From Clostridium pasteurianum DSM 525 = ATCC 6013 (GTDB lineage: Bacteria; Bacillota; Clostridia; Clostridiales; Clostridiaceae), in assembly GCF_000807255.1 (NCBI RefSeq), contig NZ_CP009268.1:124001-188000 (forward strand): a stretch of 64,000 bases of DNA. Reading direction: 5' to 3'. This document shows positions 3,228 to 50,616 of the stretch, one piece after another; position 1 is the stretch's first letter, and each line of letters starts with the position of its first letter. The notes under the pieces are model-generated. The model had not been told where the DNA came from, made no database searches, and was given only the letters and a program-made list of their open reading frames with translations. The translations under genes and the position numbers were made by a program.

Positions 3228-4025
3228 ATGGCTATATCTACTATAGTATTTTTAATTATGTGCTTTGGTGCGTTAATTGGATCATTTCTTCTTGATGGAG
3301 GACATTTAACAGCTCTTATTGCATTAGCACCAGCTATAATTGTGTTTGGAGGTACTATTGGTGCAGTCGGTGTCTCATTTCCGGGAAATGAAATTAAAAA
3401 TATAGGAAAAGTTTTAAAAGTTGCTTTAAGCGATAGAAAGGTAAATACTATAAGCCTTATAAGATATTTTAAAAATATTGCATTTAAGACTAGAAAAGAA
3501 GGCCTTCTCAGTATTGAGGAAATGATTTCAGCAGATAAGGATATAGATCCATTTATGAAAAAAGGACTTCAGATGGTAGTAGATGGAATAGATCCTCAGA
3601 CAGTTAAAAATACTCTTGAACTTAGTGCTGATCTTATTGAAGAGAGACATAGAGTTGGTATAGCTATGCTGGAAGCAGCAGGCGGATTTGCACCTACTAT
3701 GGGTATAACAGGTACTGTTACAGGTCTTGTGCATGTTTTAAATAATCTATCAGATCCTACTCAACTTGGAGGGCTTATTGCGGGGGCATTTATAGCGACC
3801 CTTTACGGTATAGGATCTGCCAACTTTATATGGCTGCCACTTGGTACTAAATTAAAGGAATTAAATTTTCAGGAGATGTTGGAAAAAAATTTAATAATAG
3901 AGGCAATACTTTGCATTCAAGAAGGAGTTAATCCAAATACTCTGGAAGAAAAGTTAAAGGGATTTTTAGATAAAAAGCAGTTAGAAGAATATAATCAAGG
4001 TGAAAGTGGTGAACAAGAACAATGA
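3228..4025 (+). CDS. motA: Flagellar motor stator protein MotA
   Basis: Stator subunit that with MotB forms the ion channel powering flagellar rotation. The 265-aa protein has the four-helix MotA/TolQ/ExbB layout: two N-terminal membrane segments, a cytoplasmic domain (about residues 60-145), then the conserved AAGGFAPTMGITGTVTGLVHVL segment and a final ANFIWLPLGTKL helix, containing the conserved prolines of the family. RBS AGGGGGAAA precedes the ATG. The stop overlaps the motB start by 4 bases, indicating translational coupling. Confidence 0.95.
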   Translation: MAISTIVFLIMCFGALIGSFLLDGGHLTALIALAPAIIVFGGTIGAVGVSFPGNEIKNIGKVLKVALSDRKVNTISLIRYFKNIAFKTRKEGLLSIEEMISADKDIDPFMKKGLQMVVDGIDPQTVKNTLELSADLIEERHRVGIAMLEAAGGFAPTMGITGTVTGLVHVLNNLSDPTQLGGLIAGAFIATLYGIGSANFIWLPLGTKLKELNFQEMLEKNLIIEAILCIQEGVNPNTLEEKLKGFLDKKQLEEYNQGESGEQEQ

Positions 4026-4783
4026 GAAAAAAGAAGCCACAAGAACATGTTAATACAGAAAGATATATGCTTACCTATTCTGATATGATAACTCTTTTAA
4101 TGATGTTTTTTATAGTAATGTATGCTTCAAGTAATGTAGATGCAGTGAAGTATAAACAAATATCTGATTCATTTAAAATTGCCTTTAGTGGCGGGCATAC
4201 CATTGTTGGAAGTGGTGATTCTATGGATGCTAGAAAAAACAAGCAAACAACTAAACAAGATAATGTAAATGAGAAAGTTAATGAAGTACAGGATGAAGCT
4301 AATGAACTACAAAAAGTAAAACAAACTATAGATAATTATATAAAGCAAAATAATATGACTGGAAATGTAAGTACTGAAATAGAGGAGAGAGGCCTTATAG
4401 TAAGTGTAAAAGATACGTTGTTTTTTGATTCAGGAAAAGCAGATGTAAAACCTGAGTTCCAAAAGAAAATTATAGAAATAGGTAATATATTAAATTCTAT
4501 TGACAATTATATAAGAATAGAAGGCCATACAGATAATGTACCTATAAGTAATTATAGATATATGGATAATTTAGATTTATCTACGGCAAGAGCCAATGCA
4601 GTACTTAGGATTTTACAAAATCAGGCTCATGTAAATGCCAAAAGGCTTACATCTATGGGATATGGGGAGCAGAGGCCTGTATCAGATAATAATACAGAGG
4701 CTGGCAGGGCTAAGAATAGAAGAGTAGATATAGTTGTAATTGATAGTAAATATAATGCTACAGAAGACAATAGTAAAAAGTAG
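4022..4783 (+). CDS. motB: Flagellar motor stator protein MotB
   Basis: A 253-aa partner of MotA. A short basic N-terminus is followed by one membrane helix containing YMLTYSDMITLLMMFFIVMY, whose Asp is the family's ion-binding residue. After a Lys/Gln-rich linker comes an OmpA-like peptidoglycan-binding domain (about 110-245) with the motifs FFDSGKADVKP, EGHTDNVPI, LSTARANAV and NRRVDI. It overlaps motA by 4 bases and is followed 2 bases later by a strong terminator, so motAB is a two-gene operon. Confidence 0.95.
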   Translation: MRKKKPQEHVNTERYMLTYSDMITLLMMFFIVMYASSNVDAVKYKQISDSFKIAFSGGHTIVGSGDSMDARKNKQTTKQDNVNEKVNEVQDEANELQKVKQTIDNYIKQNNMTGNVSTEIEERGLIVSVKDTLFFDSGKADVKPEFQKKIIEIGNILNSIDNYIRIEGHTDNVPISNYRYMDNLDLSTARANAVLRILQNQAHVNAKRLTSMGYGEQRPVSDNNTEAGRAKNRRVDIVVIDSKYNATEDNSKK

Positions 4784-29302: not shown

Positions 29303-29372
29303 AGTAAGCTGCAAGATACATAAAACTATTATTATAAAAAAATTAACGACTTAATAGAATTATGTAAAAAAC

Positions 29373-29483
29373 ATTATCTTCTTTCATCCAGACTGTACTG
29401 TTGGCCTCGGAGTTTCACCGAATCAACCATTATGGTTCGCGGGCTATACCGCCAGTGGGGAATTTCACCCCGCCCTGAAGATT
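29373..29483 (-). promoter_or_regulatory. FMN riboswitch (RFN element)
   Basis: In mRNA sense the conserved RFN blocks run AATCTTCAGGGCGGGGTG, AAATTCCCCAC, GGCGGTATAGCCCGCGA, GATTCGGTGAAACTCCGAGG, CCAACAGTACAGTC and TGGATGAAAGAAGAT. It controls the ribD-ribE-ribBA-ribH operon by FMN-dependent termination. Confidence 0.97.
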
Positions 29484-29503
29484 GTATTCACTTGTATAGT
29501 AAA

Positions 29504-46991: not shown

Positions 46992-47140
46992 GATTTCAAT
47001 TAAAACATTATTGACAATATATAAAATAAGTTATATTATTACAAAGGATAATGATAACAGACAAATTGTAAATTGTTATGCTGATTTTATAAGTTTATAA
47101 CATATATTTAACATAGCAGATTTATAATGTATAAAGTAAA

Positions 47141-47290
47141 AGGAACTTGTTAGGTGAGGTTCCTATATGAATATACGCTACTACCCAGAAATGTGGAGAC
47201 ACGCCAATGGGTTAGCTGGTACTACCGAATTAAGGTTTTATCTAATGTAGCTGAGAATTTCTCTAAGTCATATAGTGCCAAAACTCAACT
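47141..47290 (+). promoter_or_regulatory. M-box (ykoK) Mg2+ riboswitch
   Basis: Highly conserved M-box blocks occur in order: TTGTTAGGTGAGGTTCCTAT, ATACGCTACTACCCAGAAATG, GACACGCCAATGGGTTAGCTGG, TAAGGTTTTATCTAATG, CATATAGTGCCAAAACTC. In B. subtilis the M-box terminates transcription when Mg2+ is abundant. Here it is followed by a terminator at 47316-47346 and then an ABC transporter, not mgtE, corA or mgtA. Confidence 0.93.
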
Positions 47291-47315
47291 AGGTGGGAGT
47301 TTTTAATGTGCTTTT

Positions 47316-47346
47316 AAAAGCTTTCACTTATGGTGGAAGCTTTTTG
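47316..47346 (+). terminator. Expression-platform terminator of the M-box
   Basis: AAAAGCTTTCAC/GGTGGAAGCTTTTT stem with a short loop and T-run. The sequence just before it (GTGCTTTTAAAAGC) offers alternative pairing. Confidence 0.85.
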
Positions 47347-47385
47347 TTTTGTGTATTAATCAGATTAGGAAAGGTGATGATATAT

Positions 47386-47457
47386 ATGGACGGAGATGCC
47401 AGTTGCTGTAAATTCAAAAGTTTATATTGTGAAATTAAGATTGTATTAGATATTTGA
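47386..47457 (+). CDS. Possible 23-aa leader peptide between M-box and ABC transporter
   Basis: ATG preceded by AAAGGTGATG at 7 bases, encoding MDGDASCCKFKSLYCEIKIV and three more residues, then TGA. It has an excellent RBS and sits right after the riboswitch terminator. It could be a regulatory leader peptide, a small membrane or metal-binding peptide (three Cys), or the stub of a lost gene. No similarity recognised. Confidence 0.35.
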   Translation: MDGDASCCKFKSLYCEIKIVLDI

Positions 47458-47505
47458 AGATAAATAATAATTTATATTTCACGTATTTATAAAATTTCTT
47501 TAACA

Positions 47506-47524
47506 CCTTAATTTCACATTAAGG
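47506..47524 (+). promoter_or_regulatory. Short hairpin overlapping the Shine-Dalgarno of the transporter permease
   Basis: CCTTAAT, 5-base loop, ATTAAGG, whose second arm includes the AAGG of the AAGGAGGAG ribosome binding site of the permease gene. Confidence 0.45.
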
Positions 47525-47536
47525 AGGAGAAATAAC

Positions 47537-49255
47537 ATGAAAAATGAAAAAGTCTTTAATAAACAAAAATTTGGCATGATTGATGTTGTAATTTTTATAT
47601 GTATAGCAATGGTAATATACTTGATAATGTCTCCTGGTATGAATGGAACTTCGGGGAACATTGATGTAAAAATTTCAACGGATTTGGATATGCTACCTTC
47701 CTATGCATTGAGATCTGTTTTGAGAATGACGGCTGCCTACATAATAGCTATAATTTTTACACTGACGTATGGATATATAGCTGCTCATAATAAGAAAGCA
47801 GAAAAAATACTTATACCAATACTTGATATACTTCAATCTATACCAGTATTATCTTTTTTACCAGCAGTAGTTTTAGGATTAATCGCATTATTTCCCAATG
47901 GAACTTTAGGAATTGAAATAGCTTCTATTATATTAATATTCACTGGTCAGGCTTGGAATATGACTTTTAGCTTCTATTATTCTATAAAGATCTTACCTCG
48001 AGATCTAAAGGAAGCTTCAAGAATTTTACAATTAAATAGATGGCAGCAATTTAAAAAATTAGAACTTCCCTTTGCCACTATAGGACTTGTTTGGAATAGT
48101 ATGATGTCTTGGGCTGGTGGATGGTTCTTTTTAATGGCCTGTGAAATGTTTACCCTGCAGGGAAGAAGTTTTAGATTAAAAGGTATAGGATCATTTTTGC
48201 AGACTGCTGCTAATGAAGGAAATACAAAGGCACTTATATATGGAATAATAATGCTTCTTATAGTAATAATACTTTTAGATCAATTTATATGGAGACCTGT
48301 AATTGCGTGGTCTGATAAATTTAAAATAGAGCTTACACAGTCAAATGATGAGCCTAAATCTTTTGTTTTAAAATTACTCAGACGATCTTATATAGTACAG
48401 ATATTAACTGAAAAAATATTTGATCCATTTTTTTCCTTTATAGGCAAACGTATAGATAATATTATAATTAACATAAATAAAAATAAAGTTGTAAGTAGTA
48501 GAAAATTTGGAAATATATCAAAAATAATAATTAGGATAGTTAGTATAATTGTATTGATATACTTGGGGTTTAATGTAATTAAACTTTTAAGTACTTTAAG
48601 TTTTACGGATTTAAAACAAATTCCTAAAGCTGTATTATTTTCCTTGTTAAGAGTTATAGCTGCTCAGATTATAGCATTAATTTGGACTGTACCTGTAGGG
48701 GTAGCAATCGGAATGAATAAAAAGCTTGCAAATATATTTCAACCTATTATACAAGTTATAGCCTCAGTTCCAGCTACAGCACTATTTCCCGTAGTACTTG
48801 GAGTATTCATGAGTGCACTGGGTGGTCTTGGGTTTGCATCTATAATATTAATGGTAATGGGAACTCAGTGGTATATATTATTTAATGTAGTTGCAGGAGC
48901 GATGGCAATACCTGAAGACCTAAGAGCAGCTACTAAAACTTTTGGTATAAGGGGAATAAAAAAATGGAAAACTCTTATACTTCCTGGAATTTTCCCAAAC
49001 CTTGTTACGGGAATGATTACAGCTACAGGGGGATGCTGGAATGCAAGTATTGTATCGGAATATGTAAACTTTGGAGGACACGCTGTTAAAACTATAGGAC
49101 TTGGAGCTCTTATTTCTGAGGCTACAGAAACAGGAAATTTTGCATTGCTTTTGATGGGTACAATAACTATGTGTATAGTAGTTGTGGTCATCAACAACGT
49201 AGTTTGGAAAAGACTTTATACTCTAGCAGAAGAGAGATTTAAAATAGAAATATAA
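47537..49255 (+). CDS. ABC transporter, duplicated permease component (COG4986-like)
   Basis: A 572-aa integral membrane protein made of two fused BPD_transp_1 modules (about 60-260 and 345-560). Each carries an EAA-type coupling loop: LPRDLKEASRILQLNRWQQFKKLELP and IPEDLRAATKTFGIRGIKKWKTLILP. The overall look is that of the nitrate/taurine class (SsuC/TauC) and of the group called ABC-type anion transport, duplicated permease. No substrate-binding protein is encoded nearby. It lies under the M-box leader, so Mg2+ status should control it. A role in Mg2+ or another divalent cation is inferred from regulation only. Confidence 0.85.
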   Translation: MKNEKVFNKQKFGMIDVVIFICIAMVIYLIMSPGMNGTSGNIDVKISTDLDMLPSYALRSVLRMTAAYIIAIIFTLTYGYIAAHNKKAEKILIPILDILQSIPVLSFLPAVVLGLIALFPNGTLGIEIASIILIFTGQAWNMTFSFYYSIKILPRDLKEASRILQLNRWQQFKKLELPFATIGLVWNSMMSWAGGWFFLMACEMFTLQGRSFRLKGIGSFLQTAANEGNTKALIYGIIMLLIVIILLDQFIWRPVIAWSDKFKIELTQSNDEPKSFVLKLLRRSYIVQILTEKIFDPFFSFIGKRIDNIIININKNKVVSSRKFGNISKIIIRIVSIIVLIYLGFNVIKLLSTLSFTDLKQIPKAVLFSLLRVIAAQIIALIWTVPVGVAIGMNKKLANIFQPIIQVIASVPATALFPVVLGVFMSALGGLGFASIILMVMGTQWYILFNVVAGAMAIPEDLRAATKTFGIRGIKKWKTLILPGIFPNLVTGMITATGGCWNASIVSEYVNFGGHAVKTIGLGALISEATETGNFALLLMGTITMCIVVVVINNVVWKRLYTLAEERFKIEI

Positions 49256-49267
49256 GGAGTGATGGAT

Positions 49268-50560
49268 TTGAGAAAGCAAAAGGAATTCATAAAAGTAAAG
49301 GGAATAACGAAGTACTTTGGAGAGTCGGAAAAGCCTACATTAAAGGACATAAACATAAATATAAATGAAGATGAATTTATAGCTATTCTTGGGCCCTCAG
49401 GATCTGGGAAATCATCACTTCTTAGGATTATAACAGGACTTCTTGAGCCTACAGAGGGAGAAGTTATATTTGATGGCAAAAAGGTAGATGGGGTAAATCC
49501 TTATGCATCTATAGTTTTCCAGTCCTTTGCTCTATATCCTTGGCTTACAGTACAGGAAAATGTGGAACTGGGATTAAAAGCAAAGGGATTTCCAAAAGAC
49601 TATACTACAGAAAAGGCATCGGAACTTATAAGCCTTATTGGTTTAGACGGTTTTGAAGACGCCTATCCAAAGGAACTGTCTGGGGGTATGAGACAGAGGG
49701 TTGGTTTTGCAAGAGCCCTGGCAGTACAGCCTAAATTGTTATGTATGGATGAACCTTTTTCTGCATTAGATTTTTTAACAGCAGAAAACTTAAGAACAGA
49801 ACTTATAGATTTGTGGACTAATAAAAAAATGCCTATAAAGAGTGTTATAATGATAACTCACGGAATAGAAGAAGCAGTACTTATGGCAGATAAGATAGTT
49901 ATGCTTAGTCGTGATCCTGCTAGAGTTATAGCAGAGATAAAAATAAATCTTCCTCATCCAAGGAACAGAAAGTCCATTGAATTTGAAAGAACCGTTGATA
50001 GTATTTATAAAGTACTTACAAAGGGTGAATTTGATGATCAAGATGAAAATGAAATAAAAAAAGTGGTTAAAGAGAAGGTGGAAAAACCTGTTGAAATCCC
50101 AGCAGCCAGTATTGGTGTTATGTCTGGGTTATTAGAATTAGTAGATGATAACGACGGCAGAATGGATATCTATCAGCTGGGGCGTGATCTTATGATGGAG
50201 ATAGATGACCTTCTTCCTAATATTGAAGGAATATCCATGCTTAAATTTGCAGATGTAAAAGAAGGGGATATTATTATTACTCCCCTTGGAAGTAGTTTTA
50301 TTGAAGCGGAAACGGAACAGGCAAAAGAAATTTTCAGAGAGCAGATAATGGATATTTCTACATTTAAAGTTATAGTAAAGGTTCTTAATACTAAGAAGAA
50401 CAAAACTATGAAAGAAGAATTTTTTCAGGAGTTATTTGCTCAGTACCTGGGAGAGCATTCTATAGAAAGTAAGATGGATGTGATTATAGATTGGGGAAGA
50501 TATGCTGAACTATTTAATTATGATCACGATACAGAAGAATTATATATAGATATGGAATAA
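49268..50560 (+). CDS. ABC transporter ATP-binding protein with C-terminal AAA-associated domain
   Basis: A 430-aa protein. ATPase (about 1-255) with Walker A GPSGSGKSS (from about 42), LSGGMRQRVGFARAL signature (about 136), Walker B LLCMDEPFSALD, and the switch His in ITHGIEEAV. The C-terminal 150 residues (VMSGLLELVDDNDGRMDIYQLGRDL... to DWGRYAELFNYDHD) match the AAA-associated C-terminal domain seen on such ATPases, a winged-helix-like regulatory module. AAGGAG at 49254-49259 best fits the TTG at 49268; GTG 49259 and ATG 49262 are too close. Only 12 bases separate it from the permease. Confidence 0.88.
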   Translation: MRKQKEFIKVKGITKYFGESEKPTLKDINININEDEFIAILGPSGSGKSSLLRIITGLLEPTEGEVIFDGKKVDGVNPYASIVFQSFALYPWLTVQENVELGLKAKGFPKDYTTEKASELISLIGLDGFEDAYPKELSGGMRQRVGFARALAVQPKLLCMDEPFSALDFLTAENLRTELIDLWTNKKMPIKSVIMITHGIEEAVLMADKIVMLSRDPARVIAEIKINLPHPRNRKSIEFERTVDSIYKVLTKGEFDDQDENEIKKVVKEKVEKPVEIPAASIGVMSGLLELVDDNDGRMDIYQLGRDLMMEIDDLLPNIEGISMLKFADVKEGDIIITPLGSSFIEAETEQAKEIFREQIMDISTFKVIVKVLNTKKNKTMKEEFFQELFAQYLGEHSIESKMDVIIDWGRYAELFNYDHDTEELYIDME

Positions 50561-50585
50561 CAAGATAGACAAAAAATATATTTCA

Positions 50586-50616
50586 GCAGTCATTAAATTA
50601 TGGTGACTGCTTTTTT
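50586..50616. terminator. Terminator after the ABC transporter operon
   Basis: GCAGTCA...TGACTGC stem within CAGCAGTCATTAAATTATGGTGACTGC as two overlapping segments, followed by six T; also faces the convergent DUF4190 gene. Confidence 0.8.

Follow-up and report, generated by a model that had tools for sequence, protein, structure and literature searches.

An M-box Mg2+ riboswitch paired with a fused-permease ABC transporter in Clostridium pasteurianum and distant bacteria: a probable Mg2+ importer operon with an acidic leader open reading frame

The window analyzed here, a 64,000-nucleotide stretch of Clostridium pasteurianum DSM 525 DNA, contains an M-box (ykoK) Mg2+ riboswitch in front of two genes, which encode a fused, duplicated permease and the ATPase of an ATP-binding cassette (ABC) transporter. 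We consider it likely that Mg2+ represses this unit and that the unit encodes an ATP-driven Mg2+ importer. The family of fused permeases and ATPases to which the pair belongs probably imports Mg2+, because its pairing with the M-box recurs in distant bacteria. An earlier, sequence-only reading of this DNA had left two alternatives, either that the family moves Mg2+ or that an anion is linked to Mg2+ homeostasis; the first is now the best supported, as a prediction from M-box linkage. A new element, which that reading did not mention, is a short acidic open reading frame (ORF) in the leader. Positions in the window are collected in Table 1.

The aptamer matched the RF00380 model over its full length and scored 142.4 bits against a gathering threshold of 44 (cmscan, E 3.5e-32); misidentification of the M-box was set aside on these grounds. 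The 5′ arm of the predicted antiterminator overlaps the 3′ end of the aptamer, which is a strand of the aptamer closing helix in the predicted pairing, and its 3′ arm overlaps the 5′ arm of the predicted terminator, so that the two hairpins should be mutually exclusive. Both the covariance-model match and, from the predicted pairings, the expression platform of an M-box are present, and the arrangement at 47139-47344 is the usual M-box design, predicted to be OFF in Mg2+. The M-box and terminator that had been noticed before the two genes are in this respect confirmed. A hairpin with a T-rich tail was found 3′ of the aptamer in all 17 leaders checked, out of 33 M-box permease leaders, by a script of our own that tolerated one mismatch. 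No second M-box was found in the 4.35-Mb C. pasteurianum genome.

From established M-box biology, ample Mg2+ would close the aptamer, the terminator would form and transcription would stop, and in low Mg2+ the antiterminator would form and permease and ATPase would be made. Conserved linkage suggests that the fused permease with two copies of the ATPase would take up Mg2+ (or Mg2+ in a complex) and need no binding protein of its own, and that the PF09821 tail of the ATPase would act as a cytoplasmic regulatory domain. The acidic leader ORF is proposed to add a check at the level of translation.

The sequence-only reading had suggested looking for the same pairing in other genomes. In a sample of 116 genomes, taken as Clostridiaceae (the family sample), permease orthologues were present in 11 (E < 1e-200, identity 61-100%); the matches next in rank were short, with E of 1e-18 or weaker. 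An M-box lies directly upstream of the permease on the same strand in all 11, and the ATPase gene comes after the permease gene in every one of these loci. Chance co-location was set aside since the pairing holds in 11 of 11 although the flanking genes vary between genomes; our own arithmetic, from the M-box density of the family and an assumed 4 Mb per genome, gives a chance expectation of about 0.0006.

At least 583 relatives of the permease were confirmed. The best 80, retained as a named-genome set, span Acidobacteriota, Chloroflexota, Bacillota, Cyanobacteriota and other phyla. An M-box was found in 12 of these 80 genomes or metagenome-assembled genomes (MAGs) and lies upstream of the permease in eight: two Clostridium, Pelosinus, two Paenibacillus, an Alicyclobacillaceae MAG, a Ktedonobacteria MAG and one MAG labelled Proteobacteria, which clusters with Ktedonobacteria. 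In the remaining four the M-box precedes an NrmT-like gene (three genomes) or a long ORF (one). The last case is an Acidobacteriota MAG (G470, locus L138), in which the only M-box found (3855-4033) precedes a 1138-aa ORF that resembles a TonB-dependent receptor by eye.

A phylum-wide sample of 398 genomes, searched for the permease alone, added 24 permease genomes. Eighteen of them have an M-box, which is on the permease in 15; inspection of the other three by eye placed it before an NrmT-like ORF (L195), an MgtE_N-like ORF (L196) and a target left without assignment (L197). This search used the broad alignment A4 (25 of 398 genomes), which took the place of the narrow alignment A1 used at class level (2 of 341). 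When the three sets were pooled, an M-box preceded the permease in 33 of the 40 genomes having both a permease and any M-box, and these belong to Clostridium, Pelosinus, Paenibacillus, Alicyclobacillaceae, Ktedonobacteria and further families. One duplicate (cl_L034, the same genome as L044, Clostridium acidisoli) was removed from this count and from the tree. M-box counts from searches of more than 40 genomes were made with stricter filters and are lower bounds; for locus L159 the upstream sequence extends to only about 100 nt.

The permease tree has 113 rows: in 33 the M-box precedes the permease, in 7 it lies elsewhere and in 73 there is none. The M-box-on-permease label needs eight changes on this tree, at least six of them forced by starred branches, which argues for gain or loss of the link on several occasions. 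One further relative (G837, L198), kept outside the tree, has a permease gene broken up by ORFs that look transposase-like by eye, and an ATPase ORF comes after it.

The family sample also shows which other genes the M-box precedes. By coordinates, 11 of its 109 M-boxes lie before the ABC permease, 21 before MgtA and 15 before MgtE. For the rest, the best tblastn match downstream was the MgtE_N-like gene of NrmT operons, NrmT, MgtE or an MgtA-type ATPase, some of these assignments being weak (L246 matches MgtA at 34% identity only). By best match, 107 of the 109 lead to MgtE_N/NrmT, MgtE, MgtA-type or ABC permease genes; of the two left unassigned, one lies where the contig ends (L202) and the other is the weakest M-box (L265). 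As judged from these matches, the ABC permease is in the company of known Mg2+ importer types.

In the C. pasteurianum genome neither an MgtE match at E <= 0.001 nor a P-type ATPase above the MgtA cut-off was found. The genome does have two genes of the CorA family and one that is NrmT-like, but none of the three carries an M-box, which leaves the ABC pair as the one Mg2+-riboswitch target found in it. The NrmT-like gene (50% identity) stands behind an MgtE_N-like ORF at genome positions 4331000-4334500; in a genus relative (L142) an operon of the same kind does carry an M-box. Complementary loss of MgtE and MgtA was considered as support, seven of the 11 permease genomes lacking both, and, as a plain count, was given no weight.

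Both proteins answer to their first description as a 572-aa duplicated permease and an ATPase with an AAA-associated tail: the permease carries two BPD_transp_1 stretches, and ABC_tran and PF09821 were found in the ATPase. By BPD_transp_1 and ABC_tran they belong to the type I ABC importers of the nitrate/taurine superfamily, and the fold matches agree. The permease, which we take to be a member of COG4986, falls outside the nitrate, taurine and sulfonate transporters as delimited by curated cut-offs, staying far under the NCBIfam equivalog thresholds (97 bits against 209.05 for ntrB, 56.5 against 342 for TauC). A model of the permease was built from an alignment of 41 sequences (pLDDT 84.2, pTM 0.82), with L102 and L123 left out, the latter holding an unknown residue. 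Foldseek gave 11 matches at E <= 0.001 with identities of 11-27%. The first, over the whole length, was the ferric-ion importer FbpBC, a single chain of 490 residues, which we counted for the Mg2+ importer; bicarbonate and nitrate permeases followed and matched halves of the model.

Four residues, Q138, N141, Q444 and N502, did not vary across the 41 permease relatives, and six single-domain permeases (five from C. pasteurianum, one from G030) lack any equivalent of them. Both permease halves have a short insert after a membrane glutamate, and this insert is absent from the same six. The membrane acidic residues were tried as a metal site and rejected: the glutamates of both halves occur in the single-domain permeases too and so prove nothing on metal.

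The C-terminal domain of the ATPase was modelled with a pLDDT of 94.9 and is read as two winged-helix-like repeats. Foldseek of this PF09821 tail gave weak matches, none at E <= 0.001, several of which are winged-helix regulators, and its sequence profile gave short chance-like matches alone against the PDB. By tblastn the tail was found in 75 of the 80 named loci, and the combination of tail and double permease is a feature of the C. pasteurianum pair as well. The sequence-only reading had remarked on the lack of a receptor gene, and for the neighbourhood this holds; a binding protein encoded elsewhere in the genome may still serve the pair. The two-gene unit in the window has no substrate-binding-protein gene of its own, and among the 25 most frequent of the 226 Pfam families in 129 neighbour proteins at 42 loci there was no binding-protein family. 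None of these families was strongly recurrent next to the pair, the commonest being ABC_tran and AAA_21 with five members each. A conserved binding-protein neighbour was set aside after this survey.

Several observations weigh against a Mg2+ importer. In sequence the permease is nearest to bicarbonate and nitrate permeases, its only PDB matches being CmpB, NrtB and, weakly, an OpuA-type permease, and no metal site was identified in it. Seven genomes with both a permease and an M-box have the M-box elsewhere, and the 73 tree rows without one, many of them MAGs, make up most of the 113. We regard these 73 as uninformative rather than contrary, since no M-box was found anywhere in their genomes (filters were stricter in part of the searches). 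The ABC pair need not be the only route for Mg2+, as the CorA and NrmT-like genes are kept. Finally, members of the ABC family may differ in substrate, because an M-box-free relative from the outgroup of NrmT is probably a Mn2+ carrier (PMC4072509, available part).

The same precedent and the ferric importer as top fold match would also suit a different cargo: a divalent cation other than Mg2+ (Mn2+, Co2+, Ni2+), or Mg2+ in a chelate, citrate for example. The M-box would then be in use because the level of this cargo follows that of Mg2+. Set against this are the M-box targets of the family, which are Mg2+ importer types, and the many permease genomes whose sole found M-box is on the permease; we judge such a cargo unlikely. 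An anion importer (nitrate, sulfonate or bicarbonate class) on which Mg2+ homeostasis depends, the reading that the names in databases point to, is decidedly improbable. The ntrB and TauC matches and the resemblance of the sequence profile to CmpB and NrtB favour it, though the former are far under their cut-offs. It is the weaker alternative because nearly all family M-boxes, as counted above, precede Mg2+ importer types or the ABC permease; besides, the four invariant residues and the insert lack a counterpart in the six single-domain permeases (which are not established anion transporters), the neighbourhood has no binding protein, and M-box control is recurrent in several lineages. That transcription from an internal promoter bypasses a genuine M-box and leaves the pair outside its control is hardly credible: the permease start does lie 192 nt beyond the riboswitch terminator, but a consensus scan listed no + strand promoter-like site between 47138 and 47536, and the terminator recurs across leaders.

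Besides the Mg2+ importer, the locus offers a second subject, the leader ORF between terminator and permease. Its predicted product starts with MDGDAS, a start that recurs in three genus relatives. Leader ORFs of other ABC operons in the family start with MDDANS, MDDGPA or MDTEEG, and in one ABC leader (L041) a leader ORF was not evident. Outside the family, ABC leader ORFs begin with MDSDSS in Pelosinus, MDAGPSSS in Ktedonobacteria and MDADPEPQ in a further family. The M-box leaders of NrmT, MgtE and MgtA have starts such as MESGPYGGR, MEADPS, MDDGSSS and MEDGPDG.

Such ORFs were counted when they had a 5-mer of the Shine-Dalgarno sequence, a start codon, an acidic codon 2 and at least two of D, E or P in codons 2-5. 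This criterion was written after many of the first 69 leaders had been viewed, and it selected 47 of these 69 against 1.3 expected from dinucleotide shuffles (7 of 11 family ABC leaders, 6 of 22 other ABC leaders, 33 of 35 NrmT/MgtE leaders and the single MgtA leader). In a hold-out consisting of the remaining family leaders, none of them viewed beforehand, the same criterion selected 49 of 67 against a shuffle mean of 1.2 (maximum in 200 rounds, 6) and none of the reverse complements. Among MgtA leaders the rate was lower, with 9 of the 21 in the hold-out selected. As controls, the criterion was applied to three kinds of stretch: it selected 1% of those drawn at random from the window, none of the 26 that precede the aptamer and 2 of the 51 that precede window ORFs, one of the two probably being the leader ORF at 47386-47457 itself. 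In total, 87 of the 109 family M-box leaders have such an ORF. Twelve ABC leaders outside the family (L169-L180, families f95 and f169), with 52-72 nt from aptamer to permease, contain no ORF of this description. The leader ORFs of L035, L038, L039, L045, L098 and L102 look motif-like by eye, fail the criterion and were not counted.

Position counts were taken from 88 of the 96 selected leader ORFs, codon 2 being fixed and positions 3-5 partly fixed by the selection itself: ATG serves as the start codon in 84 of them, G or D occupies position 4 in 72, and P occupies position 5 in 58. As a test for selection on the peptide, variation by codon position was ambiguous: third positions were the most variable over codons 2-5 and over codons 2-9 but not over codons 5-9, and the pairs compared are non-independent. 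A fold calculation on one sequence gave an access of 0.14-0.17 for the Shine-Dalgarno sequence of the permease with a ribosome on leader-ORF codons 13-21, and of 0.45-0.52 with a ribosome on codons 1-9 or none. The lower access with the ribosome at codons 13-21 would, for this one sequence, fit early drop-off raising permease expression.

Judged from these leaders, the short acidic peptide may be a second Mg2+ sensor. We offer a broader proposal with some hesitation: most Clostridiaceae M-box leaders, and others in Bacillota and Chloroflexota, might be two-stage Mg2+ sensors, in which the M-box would act on transcription and, with ribosomes short of Mg2+, early drop-off at an acidic peptide (M-D/E-x-G/D-P/S...) would then favour translation of the importer. 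This would be the trick of MgtL and MgtQ with different leaders, and it would cover a fifth, ATP-driven class of importer together with the NrmT, MgtE and MgtA operons.

Table 1. Features of the M-box/ABC unit of C. pasteurianum DSM 525 (window positions)
Feature	Position	Strand	Remarks
Promoter-like site, sigma-70-type	47011-47039	+	TTGACA-17-TATTAT; 11/12 consensus matches; upstream of aptamer
M-box (ykoK) Mg2+ riboswitch aptamer	47139-47304	+	RF00380, full length, model 1-169
Antiterminator hairpin, predicted	47290-47330	+	arms 47290-47306 / 47314-47330; 17 bp; -16.4 kcal/mol
Intrinsic terminator of riboswitch, predicted	47316-47344	+	13-bp stem; -14.0 kcal/mol; T-rich tail
Shine-Dalgarno sequence of leader ORF	47371-47376	+	AAGGTG; read from sequence
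Leader ORF, acidic	47386-47457	+	23 codons; MDGDASCCKFKSLYCEIKIVLDI
Shine-Dalgarno sequence of permease gene	47521-47529	+	AAGGAGGAG; read from sequence
Permease gene	47537-49255	+	572 aa; duplicated; two BPD_transp_1 stretches
ATPase gene	49259-50560	+	433 aa; GTG start; PF00005 (ABC_tran) at residues 28-167
PF09821 (AAA_assoc_C) domain at ATPase C-terminus	50171-50524	+	residues 305-422; 131.3 bits
Terminator-like hairpin ending the two-gene unit	50585-50611	+	consensus scan

The promoter-like site upstream of the aptamer is the top match in the scanned region, by consensus match only. The unit is preceded by an ORF that looks methionyl-tRNA-synthetase-like by eye and is followed on the opposite strand by a DUF4190 ORF. 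A second riboswitch class in the window is an FMN riboswitch on the minus strand (29372-29486, 117.9 bits).

If the Mg2+ importer reading is true, Mg2+ importers would gain a further class in a widespread ABC family whose members mostly carry the annotation of anion transporters, and many genes would be reassigned; one of them is on the essential list of Liberibacter crescens. With the leader ORFs, two separate principles of Mg2+ sensing would come together within a single leader: folding of the RNA and stability of the ribosome. Our literature search, made mostly without subscription papers, found no title or abstract on this ABC family as a Mg2+ transporter and no report on acidic leader ORFs under Bacillota M-boxes.

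Among known transporters, FbpBC, NrtBCD and CmpBCD share the type I importer fold with the ABC pair and differ in cargo; all three work with binding proteins. A literature search on the structures of these three gave no structure paper among the titles listed. The closest precedent for the route of discovery is NrmT, an Nramp-related Mg2+ transporter found via the M-box and supported by complementation, according to the available part of PMC4072509, which gives CorA, MgtE, MgtA-type ATPases and NrmT as the bacterial Mg2+ importer classes. As with the ABC pair, the M-box revealed an unexpected clostridial transporter family under a terminator-type switch. The two protein families are unrelated, however, and NrmT was tested by complementation whereas the ABC pair is known from its sequence; the term "ABC" is absent from the main text of that paper. 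The available parts of PMC9943018 and PMC5670726 hold nothing on the ABC permease/ATPase pair, and those of PMC3766115 mention Mg2+ transporters in general terms only.

The M-box/ABC pairing is not wholly new. The accessible text of PMC5746004 describes, in one sentence and for one genome, an M-box in the 5′ untranslated region of the Bifidobacterium breve ABC transporter Bbr_0406-07, which has a COG4986 permease, and its authors suggest a role in metal ion homeostasis; compared by description, this is the pairing seen in C. pasteurianum. A Liberibacter system like Nrt/Ssu/Tau was described as a possible novel ABC system without a binding protein (PMC3688454, available part). Again by description, it shares with the ABC pair the double membrane domain, the PF09821 tail and the absence of a binding protein; in that part of the paper an M-box is unmentioned and the substrate is given as unknown, and a remark there on an HHsearch result for the PF09821 tail agrees with the winged-helix-like reading. 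The permease of Liberibacter crescens is in the essential gene set of PMC4837290, as far as the available text goes.

For the leader ORF the nearest relatives in kind are MgtL and MgtQ, as described in the available parts of the respective papers. Both act via destabilization of the ribosome: E. coli MgtL senses low Mg2+ by ribosome drop-off at EPDP (PMC11282234), and Salmonella MgtQ requires Asp2 and Glu5 (PMC8092293). Like them, the leader ORF is short, stands before a Mg2+ transporter gene (in our case a predicted one) and has early acidic codons, which are codons 2 and 4 in MgtL and 2 and 5 in MgtQ; in position and acidity it fits the MgtL type. MgtL works with Rho and MgtQ sits between genes, whereas the C. 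pasteurianum ORF, read from DNA alone, sits behind an M-box. An upstream ORF downstream of an M-box is known from Mycobacterium tuberculosis, where the conserved Rv1805A is controlled by the riboswitch and is called mycobacteria-specific by the authors (PMC12810186, available part). Rv1805A and the leader ORF thus have the same place relative to the M-box, but the mycobacterial switch has a translational platform and works with Rho, unlike the predicted terminator-type switch of C. pasteurianum.

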